Assembly (NCBI GenBank): GCA_017652105.1
Contig: JAGCBP010000016.1
Span: 1-64,000, forward strand
Reading direction: 5' to 3'
From: Candidatus Saccharimonadota bacterium
GTDB taxonomy: Bacteria > Patescibacteriota > Saccharimonadia > Saccharimonadales > Saccharimonadaceae
DNA: 64,000 bases
A model generated the notes under the pieces. The model did not search any database, was not told the origin of the DNA, and saw nothing but the letters and a program-made list of their open reading frames with translations. Of this stretch, positions 8,567 to 34,773 are shown one piece after another (positions within the stretch are counted from its first letter, which is position 1; each line of letters starts with the position of its first letter). Made by a program: the position numbers and the translations under genes.

Positions 8567-9185
8567 CTTGCTCCTTTTCTACTTTTTTGGCTTGCTTTTG
8601 CAAATATCTTTCATTAGCTATTATAACATAGGCTTCGACGCCGAGGCGTTTTAGCGACAAAATTGCGATAACAACGGCGAGGATAGTGACGATGGCGGAA
8701 ATGGCGCCGGCGATGGCAAGGGAGCCGGTGGAGAAAATTGCGCCAAGTAGTGGAGTTAAGAGTGTGGTGCCGCAAGTAGGGCAGCCGGCGCCGAGAGCGA
8801 TGAGGCCGGTGATAAGGCCGGCTTTTTCGACGTTGGCGGAATTATTATTAGAAACGGATTCCTTCTTTTTTTGCCAGAGAAAAACGATGAGGCCGACTAA
8901 GATGCCTTGAAGCAAGGCTAGGAGAAAAGTGGGAAGCCACTCGGTGAAAATCTGGTTGATGCCGAAAATACTCAGAAAAGAATCGGTCAATATGGTGATA
9001 GTGCCGGAAAAGCCGGTGGCAGCCATGAGCTCGAATTTGGAAAAACCGCCGGCTAGCAGATTGATCAACATAGCAAAAAAGATAAAAGCGGGGACAAAGC
9101 CGTACCAAAAACGCTTTTCTTTGGTGGCCATCAAGATGCCTTTTCCAGCCAAAACAAAATCGTCTAACCATTTCCTCCAGTTCAT
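8520..9185 (-). CDS. Polytopic membrane protein with CPTCG motif, DsbA partner candidate
   Basis: 221 residues, about four to five hydrophobic segments (roughly 28-46, 57-77, 85-104, 121-150, 153-176) and a basic C-terminal tail. The motif GAGCPTCGTTLLTPLLG (Cys135 and Cys138) sits in a hydrophobic segment. I do not recognise the family with certainty; it lacks the typical CVWCLY-type site of VKOR and the DsbB cysteine pattern. Co-transcription with a DsbA-like gene suggests it could reoxidise DsbA or pass electrons, which is inference. The start codon is 6 nt after a minus-strand TATAAT (9192-9197), consistent with a leaderless mRNA. Confidence 0.75.
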   Translation of the reverse strand: MNWRKWLDDFVLAGKGILMATKEKRFWYGFVPAFIFFAMLINLLAGGFSKFELMAATGFSGTITILTDSFLSIFGINQIFTEWLPTFLLALLQGILVGLIVFLWQKKKESVSNNNSANVEKAGLITGLIALGAGCPTCGTTLLTPLLGAIFSTGSLAIAGAISAIVTILAVVIAILSLKRLGVEAYVIIANERYLQKQAKKVEKEQDGGKVRTNRKKTRKR

Positions 9186-9201
9186 ATAACCATTATAACA
9201 T

Positions 9202-9359
9202 AAATATTTTAGTTTATTTTTCGAAGTTAAAATTTCACCTAGTTAAAATATCAATATCTAGGCGGCTCTGCGCCGGTATTTCAGTACCGTACTCGAGCCG
9301 TAGATATTAATATTTTAACAGGGAAATTTTAAAATATCTCAAAATAAACTAAAATATTT
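9202..9359. repeat. 158-bp intergenic palindrome with GC-rich core
   Basis: Two 59-nt AT-rich arms (9202-9260 and 9301-9359) are inverted repeats. The outer 19 nt match perfectly and the inner part closely with small shifts. Between them is a 40-nt GC-rich core that is itself a hairpin: CGGCTC/GAGCCG outside, symmetric 5-nt internal loops, CGGTA/TACCG inside and a 6-nt loop. It lies between a leaderless minus-strand promoter (9192-9197) and a plus-strand small-RNA promoter. It contains no T tract typical of a terminator. It could be a MITE-like element or a regulatory cruciform. Confidence 0.8.
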
Positions 9360-9400
9360 GTCAACAACAGCTACAACATAAAATTCATAAAAAATCAATA

Positions 9401-9428
9401 TTGACAATGATTTTGGCTATGCTAAAAT
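9401..9428 (+). promoter_or_regulatory. Promoter of candidate small RNA
   Basis: TTGACA (9401-9406), a 16-bp spacer, then TAAAAT (9423-9428), giving a predicted +1 at 9435. No start codon with a ribosome binding site follows before the terminator. Confidence 0.6.
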
Positions 9429-9434
9429 AGAATT

Positions 9435-9570
9435 AAGTTCAGATCAATCAATTCGTTGAGAGAGACCTGAGCCGATTGGGAGAGATTAGTTGAGAGTGTT
9501 GAGTTACTTTGGCTATATTTCACCTAGGAATTAAATTTAATAAACCTACCTCTTGGTGGGTTTATTTTTA
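9435..9570 (+). ncRNA. Candidate 136-nt small RNA
   Basis: A near-consensus promoter precedes it, and a strong intrinsic terminator ends it (12-bp stem 9539-9550 with 9555-9566, TCTT loop, T-rich end). The interval has no supported ORF. It contains three GTTGAG hexamers (9455, 9489, 9498) and possible long-range pairing between CCTGAGCC near 9466 and GGCT/AGG near 9511-9527. It resembles no RNA I can name; I saw neither the SRP RNA core nor tmRNA features. The downstream gene has its own promoter, so this is unlikely to be just its leader. Confidence 0.45.
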
Positions 9571-9649
9571 TGCTTAACAGGGGTGTAACAGGGGTGAAAA
9601 ATAGGCATAAGGGTTTACTTTTTGGCCAATCTGTGCTATAATTGAGGGT

Positions 9650-10738
9650 ATGAAGCTTGATCGAAAATTCGATAAAATAATGCTTCTTGCCACGGTGTTA
9701 TTGCTGTCGGCGGTTCTTGGTGCTACACTGGCTAAGAATGCGATGGTAAACACTTACGCAGAAAACGAATCTGGCATTTATGAGGAACAGGATGAATATT
9801 TTGTGACCTTTTATGATGATGGGCAGAAATTGACCATAAAAACTAATGCTAGAACCGTAAGAGAAGCACTCGAGAAAGCTAATTATAAGATAAACATCTC
9901 TGATCGGGTAGAGCCAGCGCTTGATACCAAGATTGATAGTAATAACTTCTTTATCAATATTTATCGGTCGCGGCCGGTGCTGGTGAAGGTGGGGATGTTT
10001 GAAAAATATCTGATGACGGCTAGCCATGATGCTCGGACTATTGCTGAGGAAGCCGGGTTGACCGTTTATGATGGGGATGAGATTAAAGTGGTAGAAAATG
10101 GCGACTTTCTAGAATCCGGCGTGCAATTTGCGTATGAAATTAAGCGTAACGGGGGTAGAACGGTGACTGTGGATACAGAAATTCCGTTTAATGAGCAAAC
10201 TGTAAAGGATTATAATTTGGCGCCGGGCCAGAGAGAAGTAAGACAACTGGGTGAAGTAGGTCTGAAAACTTCTAATTATGAGGTGCTTTATGTGGATGGG
10301 GTGGAAGTTTCGAGAAACTTGATTTCTGAGGCGGTGATTAGAGAGCCGGTAGATAGAATTGTGGCGGTGGGGGCAAGTTTGATTGAGAGAAGGCCTTTGA
10401 CTGCCGGTATGGGGGTAAATATTTATACTGTAAACAAGGGCAGTGGGGTGGTAGTAGAGAGGAGAGAGACTTATTACGACCTGGATATGGGTATTGTAAT
10501 GAACGCAGCTGCAAGAACATGTGGGGTGGCTCCTACTTATACCGTGCGTAAAGATGGTGCCAAGGTAGATGCCGACGGATATGTGCTGGTAGCGGCGAAT
10601 TTGTCGAGATACCCGAGATGTTCGATGGTGGAGACTTCGCTAGGGCCGGGCAAAGTGTACGATACTGGTGGGTTTGCTTCCGCCAATCCAGAACAATTTG
10701 ACCTCGCGACAGACTGGACTAACCACAATGGCCGATAA
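9650..10738 (+). CDS. YabE-like cell-wall protein (DUF348, G5 and 3D-type domains)
   Basis: 362 residues. Residues about 12-30 form a signal or anchor segment. Two DUF348-like repeats follow (about 48-110, containing NARTVREALEKANY, and 110-165, containing DARTIAEEAGL), then a G5-like domain (about 168-245). The C-terminal part ends GPGKVYDTGGF and DLATDW, resembling the 3D/double-psi barrel end of YabE-Rpf-type proteins, which act on or bind peptidoglycan. It overlaps rsmA by 11 nt; in Bacillus subtilis yabE also sits near ksgA. TATAAT (9637-9642) ends 7 nt before the start, predicting a leaderless mRNA. Confidence 0.82.
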   Translation: MKLDRKFDKIMLLATVLLLSAVLGATLAKNAMVNTYAENESGIYEEQDEYFVTFYDDGQKLTIKTNARTVREALEKANYKINISDRVEPALDTKIDSNNFFINIYRSRPVLVKVGMFEKYLMTASHDARTIAEEAGLTVYDGDEIKVVENGDFLESGVQFAYEIKRNGGRTVTVDTEIPFNEQTVKDYNLAPGQREVRQLGEVGLKTSNYEVLYVDGVEVSRNLISEAVIREPVDRIVAVGASLIERRPLTAGMGVNIYTVNKGSGVVVERRETYYDLDMGIVMNAAARTCGVAPTYTVRKDGAKVDADGYVLVAANLSRYPRCSMVETSLGPGKVYDTGGFASANPEQFDLATDWTNHNGR

Positions 10739-13102: not shown

Positions 13103-15835
13103 ATGGCAAAAGAAAAAAAGCCTAGTGATAAATTGGCAGACAAAACCGCATTGACTAAATTTTTGCAGGGAGTATTTGGTGATGCTCAAAAGAGAGTTTT
13201 GAAGCGCCTTTGGAAAAGAGCTCGGGGTATTGGCGAATTAGAGCCAAAATATGAGGCGATGAGCGATAAAGAGCTAAAAGCTCAGACTGATGAATTTAAA
13301 AAACGAATTGATGCGGCATTAGGGCAAGAGCGAGATGAAAATGGTCGGTTGATCAAGTCGAAAAAGACTTTGGATGATACGAAGATTTTGGATGAGATTT
13401 TGCCAGAAGCTTTTGCGGTAGCAAGAGAAGCCTCCAAGAGAATTTTGAAAATGCGCCCATATGATGTGCAGCTGATTGGCGGTATGGTGCTAAATGAAGG
13501 TGCCGTAGCCGAGATGAAAACCGGTGAAGGTAAGACTCTCGTGGCAATGCTTCCGGCTTATCTTAATGCCTTGACTGGGCGGGGTGTGCACGTGGTGACC
13601 GTAAACGATTATCTTGCGCAGCGTGATGCGGGTTGGAATGGTCCGGTGTATGACTTTTTAGGGGTATCAGTAGGTGTAATTATTAACAACGCCTCATTTA
13701 TTTATGATCGTAATTTTGAGAACGATCAGCACGACGATGAAAGATTTTTACATCTCAAGCCGTGTACAAGAAAAGAGGCCTACAATGCCGATATTACTTA
13801 CGGTACCAATAACGAGTTTGGTTTTGATTATTTGCGTGATAATATGACCTCTGAAGTTCAAAATTTGCGCCAGAGAGAGCTGAATTTTGCAATCGTGGAT
13901 GAGGTAGATTCGATTTTGATTGATGAGGCGAGGACACCGCTGATCATTAGTGCACCGGCGGGCGATAATCCGGAATCTTATTATCAGTTTGCTAAGATTT
14001 GCGCAAGATTGGTGCCAGAGGACTATATTTTGGACGAAAAGCGGCGCTCGGTAACTCTCACCGATGAAGGAATTGAAAAAATTCAAAAAATGTTAGGGGT
14101 AGATAACCTCTATTCTACCAAAAATACACCGCTGGTCTATCATTTGGAGCAGGCTCTGAGGGCGGAAGTGCTGTTTAAGAGAGATAAAGATTATGTGGTG
14201 ACTAATTCTGGTGAGGTGATTATTGTGGATGAGCATACTGGGCGGTTGATGCAAGGGCGCCGGTATAATGAGGGGCTTCACCAAGCGATTGAGGCTAAAG
14301 AGGGTGTAGTAGTAAAACAGGAATCGATGACTCTTGCGACTATTTCGTTTCAGAACTTTTTCCGTTTGTATAAGAAACTATCTGGTATGACTGGTACGGC
14401 ATTTACCGAGGCAGAGGAATTCCAACAGATTTATGCGCTAGATGTAATTCAAATTCCACCAAACAAGCCGATTATTCGGGTGGATAAAGACGATTTGATT
14501 TATAAGACTAAAGCTGGCAAATTGAAGGCAATTGCTGAGGCAATTTCTGAATACCACAAGAAGGGGCAGCCAGTACTGGTTGGTTCGGACTCGATTGCCA
14601 ACAACGAGGAAATTGCGCGTTATTTGGAGCAATTTGGGTTGCCATATGAGATTTTGAACGCAAAAAACAATGAGCGAGAGGCGGCGATTATTGCTAAAGC
14701 CGGTGAAAAAGGCGCAATTACCTTGGCTACTAATATGGCAGGGCGGGGTACTGATATTAAACTTGGGCCGGGCGTAAAGGAACTAGGTGGCTTAGTGGTG
14801 ATCGGTTCGGCACGGCACGATTCTAGGCGGGTGGATAATCAGCTGAGAGGCCGTGGTGGTCGGCAAGGTGATCCGGGCACTACTCAATTCTTTGTATCCT
14901 GCGAAGATGATTTGATGCGGATTTTCCAAGGTGATCGGGTGAAAGTACTGATGAACAGATTGGGCGTGCCAGATGATACACCGATTCAGACCCGGGCGAT
15001 TTCTAAGACTTTGGAATCGGCGCAGAAGCGGATTGAAGGATTTAACTTTGATTCACGAAAGAATGTGGTGCAGTACGATAACGTGATTAACCGGCATCGC
15101 CGAGTGGTTTACATGATGCGCCGGAAGATTCTGGAGGGTGATGATATTTATTCAGAGATTAAGAGGTTGATGCGAGAGGAAGCAAAGACTTTGACCGAGT
15201 TTTCCTCTAGGGTAAATAAGAATTTTGATGCGGAGTTTAAGGCGGTATTTGATTTTGATGATAATCTGATTCATGAAATTGGGTTGAAGCGCAAAGAAAA
15301 AGAGCGCGAGAAACTAGCCTACGAGGCGATTGAGGAAGCCTACAAGAAACAAGAGGAAATCTTTGGGTCTGAAACTATGCGGAAGGTAGAGCGGGAAGTT
15401 TATCTCAAGGTACTAGATATGCTTTGGATGCAGCATCTCGAGAATATGCAACACCTTCGAGAAGGAATTCATTGGCGTTCGGTAGGGCAAAGAGATCCTT
15501 TGGTAGAATACCGTTCGGAATCTCAGAAACTGTTTGATGGGCTTCAGAGGAATTTGCGTGAGGAAGTTTTGAAGATTCTCCTCACTATTACACCGACTGA
15601 GGCGGTTGAGGATAATGTAACTGATGGTGAGGAATACGAATCTGAGCTCACCAAGATGGCTTCGGGCAACGACAAAGGGGTAAACGAGATTTCAGCGGGT
15701 GAGAAAAATCTTGACGATGAGTTTAAGAAAACTACGCCGGGAGCTGGTGCAAAGAAAGCGGCTAAAGCCACAAGTAAACACGCCGGTTCCAAAAAGAAAA
15801 AATCCGCTAAGAAAAAGAAGTCAAAAAGAAAGTGA
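13103..15835 (+). CDS. secA: Preprotein translocase ATPase SecA
   Basis: Motor of the Sec pathway. 910 residues. Seen: the region around KMRPYDVQLIGGMVLNEG, Walker A MKTGEGKTLVA, DEVDSILIDEARTPLIISAP (DEAD motif region), preprotein crosslinking domain, and the second NBD with TNMAGRGTDI and QLRGRGGRQGDPG. The last 50 residues are Lys/Ala/Ser-rich, and the usual C-terminal zinc-binding CxC...CH motif is absent. A leader of about 25 nt with AGGAG precedes the start. The stop overlaps the GTG start of the M16 peptidase gene. Confidence 0.97.
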   Translation: MAKEKKPSDKLADKTALTKFLQGVFGDAQKRVLKRLWKRARGIGELEPKYEAMSDKELKAQTDEFKKRIDAALGQERDENGRLIKSKKTLDDTKILDEILPEAFAVAREASKRILKMRPYDVQLIGGMVLNEGAVAEMKTGEGKTLVAMLPAYLNALTGRGVHVVTVNDYLAQRDAGWNGPVYDFLGVSVGVIINNASFIYDRNFENDQHDDERFLHLKPCTRKEAYNADITYGTNNEFGFDYLRDNMTSEVQNLRQRELNFAIVDEVDSILIDEARTPLIISAPAGDNPESYYQFAKICARLVPEDYILDEKRRSVTLTDEGIEKIQKMLGVDNLYSTKNTPLVYHLEQALRAEVLFKRDKDYVVTNSGEVIIVDEHTGRLMQGRRYNEGLHQAIEAKEGVVVKQESMTLATISFQNFFRLYKKLSGMTGTAFTEAEEFQQIYALDVIQIPPNKPIIRVDKDDLIYKTKAGKLKAIAEAISEYHKKGQPVLVGSDSIANNEEIARYLEQFGLPYEILNAKNNEREAAIIAKAGEKGAITLATNMAGRGTDIKLGPGVKELGGLVVIGSARHDSRRVDNQLRGRGGRQGDPGTTQFFVSCEDDLMRIFQGDRVKVLMNRLGVPDDTPIQTRAISKTLESAQKRIEGFNFDSRKNVVQYDNVINRHRRVVYMMRRKILEGDDIYSEIKRLMREEAKTLTEFSSRVNKNFDAEFKAVFDFDDNLIHEIGLKRKEKEREKLAYEAIEEAYKKQEEIFGSETMRKVEREVYLKVLDMLWMQHLENMQHLREGIHWRSVGQRDPLVEYRSESQKLFDGLQRNLREEVLKILLTITPTEAVEDNVTDGEEYESELTKMASGNDKGVNEISAGEKNLDDEFKKTTPGAGAKKAAKATSKHAGSKKKKSAKKKKSKRK

Positions 15836-34199: not shown

Positions 34200-34368
34200 A
34201 AGGAGCGATTTGTTCGCTGGGACTTGTTCACTTATAAAATTTACAACATGAAGTCAAGAAAAAATGTCCTTAAGACTGGGACATTTTTTCATTGTTAGGT
34301 TGTAAATTTTATGTGAACAAATCTGGTCTAAATCTCATTATGCTCACAAATCACTCCTTTTACTCTTC
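34191..34368. repeat. Nested inverted repeat and bidirectional terminator between rnc and rpsP
   Basis: Three nested dyads. Outer: 23-bp arms with one mismatch (34191-34213 and 34346-34368), each covering the last codons and stop of one of the convergent genes. Middle: 22-bp arms (34224-34247 and 34299-34320) with a 2-nt bulge. Inner: a perfect 11-bp hairpin AAAAAATGTCC (34259-34269) with its complement (34279-34289), acting as a terminator in both directions. As a consequence both mRNAs carry nearly the same 3' end. Confidence 0.8.
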
Positions 34369-34773
34369 GGCTGGAGCTTCGGCTTCTGCTGGAGCTTCGG
34401 CTTCGACTGGCGCCTCGGTTTCGGCTGGAGCAGTTTCTTCAGCGGCTGGAGCCTCTTCTTTTGGCTGGTTTTTGCGCAGCTTATCAGCGTGCTTAGCCTT
34501 GGCAGATTTCTTTGGCTCTTCTTTGTACCATTTCGGTAGTTTAACGCCGTTTTTCTTTAAAATGAAGGCCACGCGAGAGCTAGGCTTGGCGCCATTTTTT
34601 AGATATTTTTCTACCAATTCCTTATTTAGGACAAGGGCCTTGGTGGTTGGGTTGTAGTTGCCGACCTCAGCCACAACGCGCCCAGAAAGAGGGTGACGCT
34701 GGGATTCTTGGACGACTATCCGGTACACAGGGAGGTGTGTCCGGCCATTACGCTGCATACGAATCGCTAGCAT
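34360..34773 (-). CDS. rpsP: 30S ribosomal protein S16 with repetitive acidic tail
   Basis: 137 residues. The core MLAIRMQRNGRTHLPVYRIVVQES...GRVVAEVGNYNPTTKALVLNKELVEKYLKNGAKPS is S16. From about residue 85 it continues with a basic then Glu/Ala/Pro-rich repetitive tail (EAPAE units), unusual for this protein. A GGAG-type ribosome binding site precedes the start. It is transcribed away from the KH-protein gene; in Firmicutes the two are neighbours in the same direction. Confidence 0.94.
   Translation of the reverse strand: MLAIRMQRNGRTHLPVYRIVVQESQRHPLSGRVVAEVGNYNPTTKALVLNKELVEKYLKNGAKPSSRVAFILKKNGVKLPKWYKEEPKKSAKAKHADKLRKNQPKEEAPAAEETAPAETEAPVEAEAPAEAEAPAEE

Follow-up and report, generated by a model that had tools for sequence, protein, structure and literature searches.

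A 158-bp palindrome in a Saccharibacteria genome is probably one copy of a small mobile hairpin element

Why does a 158-bp palindrome occupy the gap between two divergent genes of a Saccharibacteria genome, and what keeps its arms complementary? The window analysed here, the whole stretch of 64,000 nucleotides from contig JAGCBP010000016.1, carries this structure at positions 9202-9359 (Table 1). An earlier note had described two 59-nt arms, AT-rich and enclosing a GC-rich core, with no terminator T tract, and this two-layer description is borne out. The near-symmetric arms are 59 nt each, 78% complementary, and flank a 40-nt spacer. Folded as single-stranded DNA, the 158 nt reach -41.3 kcal/mol, compared with -10.95 ± 2.69 for shuffled sequences (z -11.3; 0 of 200 shuffles). 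The palindrome supplies two of the 11 segments with z ≤ -5.7 in a folding scan of 11,077 segments of 240 nt, which covered nearly the whole genome. A terminator scan found no terminator-like site within it, that is, no GC-rich stem followed by a T tract. Rfam searches at the gathering threshold returned three tRNAs only for the whole window; at E ≤ 5, seven matches across 9100-9700 lay far under their gathering scores and were rejected as generic hairpin matches.

Table 1. Features of the palindrome and its neighbourhood, in window coordinates
Feature	Position	Strand	Basis or remark
Neighbouring gene, 221 aa	8520..9185	-	no Pfam match at E ≤ 0.001; ATG at 9185
Putative extended -10, TGTTATAAT	9192..9200	-	sequence; over-represented 9-mer class; would serve the gene starting at 9185
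Left arm	9202..9260	.	arm pairing and folding; outer part ~9202-9231
10-bp direct repeat TTAAAATATC, copy 1	9243..9252	+	comparison with relative G155 (locus L027)
Centre matching covariance model R1	9245..9316	+	89.3 bits, E 6e-20; one of four genome copies
GG bulge, 2 nt	9261..9262	+	alignment; GT in 2 of 15 other aligned copies
GC-rich tip	9263..9300	+	sequence, alignment, pairing
Inner stem CGGCTC/GAGCCG	9263-9268 with 9295-9300	+	within the GC-rich tip
Unpaired TGCGC and TACTC sides	inside 9263..9300	+	sequence, alignment
Tip hairpin CGGTA-TTTCAG-TACCG	9274-9289	+	sequence, pairing
Right arm	9301..9359	.	arm pairing, folding, family outer-arm comparison; outer part ~9330-9359
10-bp direct repeat TTAAAATATC, copy 2	9329..9338	+	comparison with G155
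Promoter-like site and candidate small RNA or leader	9401..9573	+	terminator-like site 9539-9566; outside the element
Neighbouring gene, DUF348 and G5 domains	9650..10738	+	Pfam

The palindrome had also been placed between two promoters. On the plus strand this is supported by a predicted sigma-70-like promoter (TTGACA-16-TAAAAT, 11/12 match) at 9401-9428, 41 bases from the palindrome. On the minus strand, a single base separates the extended -10 element from the palindrome edge. The location of this element just before the ATG and the TGNTATAAT words, which belong to the genome's most over-represented 9-mers, fit a putative leaderless promoter, although a promoter scan requiring a -35 box listed zero minus-strand sites. 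The abutment of the palindrome on this promoter is taken as tolerated; a regulatory role is not needed.

Sequence and structure searches identify the palindrome as one copy of a dispersed, multi-copy family. Its GC core recurs at many unrelated loci of the genus, and the copies that were folded lie mostly within long hairpins. A covariance model, R1, was built from 16 A1 copies of equal length, after exclusion of L290, with its core shorter by one base, and of copies above 92% likeness. In the own genome, the model matches four copies: the window copy (9245-9316) and C16:2469-2540, both of which are in the model and match by construction, and the independent C15:17943-18049 and C15:107802-107872. 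BLAST found the window copy alone, and the three others surfaced with the covariance model. Across the genus, R1 matches 81 of 170 genomes at E ≤ 0.01, with a maximum of 16 matches per genome. Matches in a sample of the order (40 of 392 genomes) and in one of the phylum (2 of 379) all fall in the own genus, one of 156 and one of 313 genera, respectively; the E-values are approximate, and weak matches may have been lost to the more stringent filters applied to large samples. On these matches, the family is confined to a single Saccharibacteria genus in the samples searched. A 17-base core search of named genomes returned 96 stretches (80 named among the matches listed), unrelated bacteria included. 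In a test of 116 core sites, 68 were kept, and those named among the matches listed are all Saccharibacteria, mostly ruminant-gut; every named site outside Saccharibacteria had a hairpin score of at most 18.5 and was dropped as chance. Viral contigs contained zero exact matches to two core patterns. Near-identical centres occur at differing loci within one genome (G099, G113, G069, G131, G073), and the family is apparently mobile. Instead of a single conserved copy at one locus, which the earlier note had held against mobility, the genus harbors a family at many loci.

The centre of the element is conserved as a structure. In 16 distinct copies, 95.1% of 432 cells are paired, a value that none of 500 shuffles reaches, and slid-partner controls pair at 38-43% (41% for a one-base slide). 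The compensatory changes between arms that the earlier note had proposed to look for are present: 22 of 27 pairs have changed on both sides, the stems varying in sequence and staying complementary. The GG or GT bulge is kept in 16 of 16 copies, and the unpaired TGCG and TRCTC sides in most. RNAalifold, applied to a mixed 53-sequence alignment, recovered a 5-bp tip alone, the subtypes differing in length. Over 100 copies, mismatches comprise 193 G.T, 168 A.C and 572 others, many of the latter probably contributed by the conserved loops. Each G.T reads as an A.C on the opposite strand; the two counts do not differ (p 0.21) and therefore give no sign of selection on a one-strand RNA.

In most pairs of copies compared, the outermost stem belongs to the locus, not to the family. 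Compared between copies, left arms at a distance of 60-90 nt from the centre have a mean likeness of 6.0, against a background of 5.9 (100 copies). Pairing of a copy's own arms averages 15.9, and in 95% of the 100 copies it exceeds the 95th percentile of mismatched pairs; copies were admitted only with an arm score of at least 21 over 10-100 nt, so that own-arm pairing is partly by construction. The unlikeness of outer arms between copies is unaffected by this rule. Among 122 pairs with centres at least 90% alike, which are not mutually independent, 106 have dissimilar outer arms, and average likeness is near background (8.4 and 8.0 vs 7.9 and 7.7 across arms). For example, two copies of G131 have centres 99% alike and unlike outer arms. 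Gradual divergence does not account for those pairs whose outer arms are unlike and whose centres are at least 96% alike. The other 16 pairs (among them copies within G113 and G069 and some orthologues) have a common outer arm on at least one side, which suggests that a longer unit moved there. From this family behavior, the outer part of the left arm of the window copy would likewise be locus-specific.

Two sources of the outer stem, a pre-existing host hairpin and inverted copying of the flank, are each supported at a few loci, whose gene names (parA, rplU, nusG, rplK, rpmG, nusA) were assigned by eye. Between parA and rplU, G003 has a plain terminator, AAATAAACCC-TTGC-GGGTTTATTT, and the long palindromic inserts of G114 and G137 are enclosed by a stem that shares its 8-9 bp base. 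This shared base is short and AT-rich; in G028 the site lacks a hairpin, and that of G124 resembles the remnant of a deletion rather than an empty site. At nusG/rplK, plain terminators in G152, G140 and G109 correspond to the element in G099; gene order differs in G020 and G004, and G004 has a terminator-like stem with a different palindromic tip. At rpmG, plain terminators in G019 and G144 take the place of the element seen in G069. The 5S/nusA locus has one plain terminator in G109 and G004 and several hairpins in G138 and G152. The 5S terminator of G099 is preserved next to the element, and this locus therefore speaks against tip insertion. In Obg, the left arm spans the conserved ELLRE codons, which the right arm repeats in inverted orientation, with the junction GGAACTT/AAGTTCC.

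The window site itself was compared across relatives at 18 loci taken around the small-RNA locus, of which 10 could be read on the proper side; the eight minus-strand loci say nothing. The closest relative by TlyA, G155 (76%), retains the outer stem at the orthologous site, and the core is gone. A slippage deletion in G155 is suggested because the missing segment is bounded by the 10-bp repeats starting at 9243 and 9329. Over the outer 22 positions, the own genome and G155 differ at four left-arm positions, three of which are mirrored in the right arm, and no right-arm difference lacks a mirror in the left; one more left-arm difference lies farther inside, beyond the compared stretch. The arm mismatches had been attributed to decay or selected pairing. 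Simple decay does not account for mirrored differences, and conservation of pairing, with its many compensatory changes, stands. Elsewhere, G007 has a palindrome with another core at the window-copy site, G003 has one upstream of the same candidate RNA, and in G001, G010 and G016 a comparable hairpin was not found at this locus.

Copies also reside inside genes. Of 100 copies read, 74 are intergenic, 20 lie in an open frame, two are unclassed and four have too little flank. Thirteen of the 20 frames exceed 1 kb, and the other seven are short and maybe spurious. All nine of the long frames searched against Pfam belong to known families: class I tRNA synthetases (by our reading of the domains, two IleRS-type and one ValRS-type), P-type ATPase (the ATPase domain in two cases and the HAD domain alone in one fragment), FemAB and Obg. 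The inserts are stop-free and, in alignments, lengthen tRNA synthetases and other conserved proteins by ~45-55 residues. All seven subtype-A2 copies in long genes have a common strand, frame and recognisable peptide (SAGASSHFDNGHGRVAGTEIPGRDRLTRCKNDDCAPRTLRN in L047), and the six A1 copies in long genes occupy both strands. The own-genome homologues of IleRS, ValRS and P-type ATPase are uninterrupted, and its FemAB has a different insert at that place. In the own genome and in G007, G077, G166 and G009, the element lies within Obg, and the G155 gene is uninterrupted; the pattern used in the Obg survey resolved 12 of 30 loci and missed 18, among them G077 and G166, which were caught in the classing of the 100 copies. 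In G029, a window-type core is in frame in LepA. Two IleRS inserts have distinct positions. The three P-type ATPase copies look to be at one site, as do the two ValRS copies, so that independent gene insertions would be fewer than copies. In these comparisons, conserved genes contain some copies as in-frame, stop-free inserts that are missing from the homologues.

The window palindrome is thus very probably a copy of a small, non-autonomous mobile hairpin DNA element that works like the Rickettsia palindromic elements (RPE). Such a selfish repeat would land between genes, or in frame within genes that tolerate an extra loop. Its centre may have entered the tip of a pre-existing local hairpin, which at some loci would be an intrinsic terminator; alternatively, flanking DNA may be copied into an inverted second arm. 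The arms would be kept complementary by template switching during replication, at the DNA level and not through selection of an RNA stem, because G.T and A.C are even, whereas a one-strand RNA stem should favour G.U, and because three of the four outer-arm differences from G155 are mirrored. The window copy is probably a selfish palindromic element lodged in a host hairpin, with the counterpoint that it occupies a divergent gap, an unexpected place for a terminator. A more specific mechanism can be put forward only tentatively, and we lean somewhat against it: a DNA module would enter, as a mobile tip, hairpin loops that already exist in terminators or in short inverted repeats within genes, the outer stem being the host's and the inner stems re-matched by template switching, possibly without a dedicated transposase. 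If this were true, the unrelated tip families of the genus (cores in tlyA, lepA, der and terminators) would be products of one process.

Several known systems resemble this family in part. In passages of two papers, RPE are 105-146 bp, form hairpins and lie in frame in conserved genes (PMC10969869, PMC2229807); titles of cited works name protein-coding palindromes of Wolbachia and palindromes with coding potential in Methanocaldococcus. The likeness to RPE extends to palindromic hairpins of similar size, many copies, intergenic and in-frame locations and a conserved peptide. The present element differs in its phylum, in its greater length (~150-220 bp vs 105-146 bp), in the presence of subtype A1 in obg on both strands and in the locus-specific outer stems of most copies, which those passages (PMC10969869, PMC2229807) do not mention for RPE. 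It is likened to RPE by description and is not filed as a member of that family. MITEs such as Correia/NEMIS, ERIC and RUP are also small, dispersed, hairpin-forming and without their own transposase; here, however, conserved terminal inverted repeats were not encountered, given the 106 of 122 alike-centre pairs with dissimilar outer arms, and no target-site duplication was noticed by eye. REP sequences, which are linked to Y1 (RAYT) transposases, share the location of hairpins near gene ends. They measure 20-40 bp (PMC3733652), and the Y1 transposase (PF01797) is absent from 22 of 22 genomes here, 12 with copies and 10 without, the control having given a match in 5 of 14. Template-switch hairpins, as PMC8794818 presents them, have arms matched by inverted copying, whereas the present family has a conserved mobile centre in addition. 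Among the matches listed in open-licence PMC, palindromic, repetitive or inverted-repeat elements of this kind are unreported for Saccharibacteria, CPR and Patescibacteria.

Strong covariation, and the plain terminators that occupy some element sites in relatives, would also be expected of a structured RNA or a giant bidirectional terminator, whose hairpin is kept since the transcript must fold. The intergenic distribution points the same way: copies lie in 32 convergent, 26 tandem and 16 divergent gene pairs, and adjacent ORF pairs of the own genome (n = 509; simple ORF calls) comprise 74 convergent, 362 tandem and 73 divergent ones, so that convergent gaps are enriched (32/74 vs 74/509; chi-square p 3e-10). 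This explanation nevertheless seems quite improbable. Copies are found in frame within coding genes, where a terminator would be expected to be harmful; no preference for G.T over A.C is apparent; and in the 16-copy set, only four of 411 paired cells are G.U, fewer than the 21 unpaired cells. The window copy, in its divergent gap, has neither a terminator-like site nor an Rfam match above the gathering score. A regulatory cruciform peculiar to this locus, acting between the two promoters and suggested earlier, draws on their proximity to the palindrome, and we consider it scarcely credible: evidence for such a role was not found, the element also lies at many unrelated loci and inside genes, the orthologous site of G155 lacks the core, and G001, G010 and G016 lack a comparable hairpin.

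The earlier likening to MITEs anticipated the dispersal of the family over many unrelated loci, and size, palindromic form, multi-copy spread and near-identical copies in one genome agree with it, as do the G069 and G113 copies, which have most of their arms in common. It is nonetheless unlikely that the element is a classical MITE, with conserved terminal inverted repeats bound by an unrecognised transposase acting in trans, as the outer ends are unlike in most pairs compared, by-eye inspection noticed no target-site duplication, and the Y1 transposase is absent from all 22 genomes (PF01797 alone was searched). Locus-specific arms could instead mean that each palindrome was made on the spot by template switching, without any mobile element, and template switching is reported to create and mend hairpins (PMC8794818). 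Yet a centre of 70-90 nt that is conserved, with asymmetric bulges, and near-identical at unrelated loci is not expected from repeated chance origin. On-the-spot origin, which may still hold for the outer arms, is contradicted for the centre and, as a full account, is very improbable. A mobile palindromic element is the reading we retain.

In-frame entry of selfish palindromes into conserved genes is already known from Rickettsia and Wolbachia. A family in Saccharibacteria, another small-genome group, would demonstrate recurrence of the phenomenon, which would then be no mere oddity of Rickettsia. In addition, the locus-specific outer stems and the even G.T and A.C counts make both the spread of the element and the upkeep of its symmetry directly testable.

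Other repeats were observed alongside the family. A second long palindrome, of another core family, lies in the window at ~34200-34370 (TTCACTTATAAAATTTACAAC ... GTTGTAAATTTTATGTGAA), and part of it (GGTCTAAATCTCATTATGC) recurs in the parA/rplU palindrome of G150 (L419). In the own genome, further palindromic core families occupy in-frame positions within tlyA, lepA and der (names by eye; L166 ~9140-9260, L192 ~770-900, L196 ~13780-13950), and the peptide of the tlyA insert has matches to other frames in relatives. At L188, ~14370-14650, there are tandem copies of a unit that, by eye, resembles the 3' end of a tRNA with a terminator-like hairpin after it. A large lepA insert of relatives, considered as an autonomous element, was rejected, as 12 loci show a split gene with ordinary genes between. 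In these 12 relatives (L266-L277), LepA is encoded by two separate genes, split at the same linker (~aa 175/211), and unrelated gene(s), phosphoglycerate mutase-like and aquaporin-like by eye, stand between the halves; the pair in G030 face each other. A larger transposon around the G069 copies proved to be the palindrome plus repeated coding fragments. Several near-identical palindromes of this genome (L302-L305, L352, L353) adjoin such fragments, one of which, RRYPLSYV, is present in L303 and L304, and contigs often end there.

At the window locus, 28 of 60 genomes have a match somewhere within 9186-9649, and 22 genus relatives match 9401-9573 (our own count among the matches listed). This candidate RNA sits upstream of the G5/DUF348 gene and has no Rfam match above threshold. 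The word AACAGGGGTG occurs 11 times in the own genome, where 0.8 occurrences are expected; in the window it is found at 9576, 9587 and 11824, the first two forming a close pair before the G5 gene.
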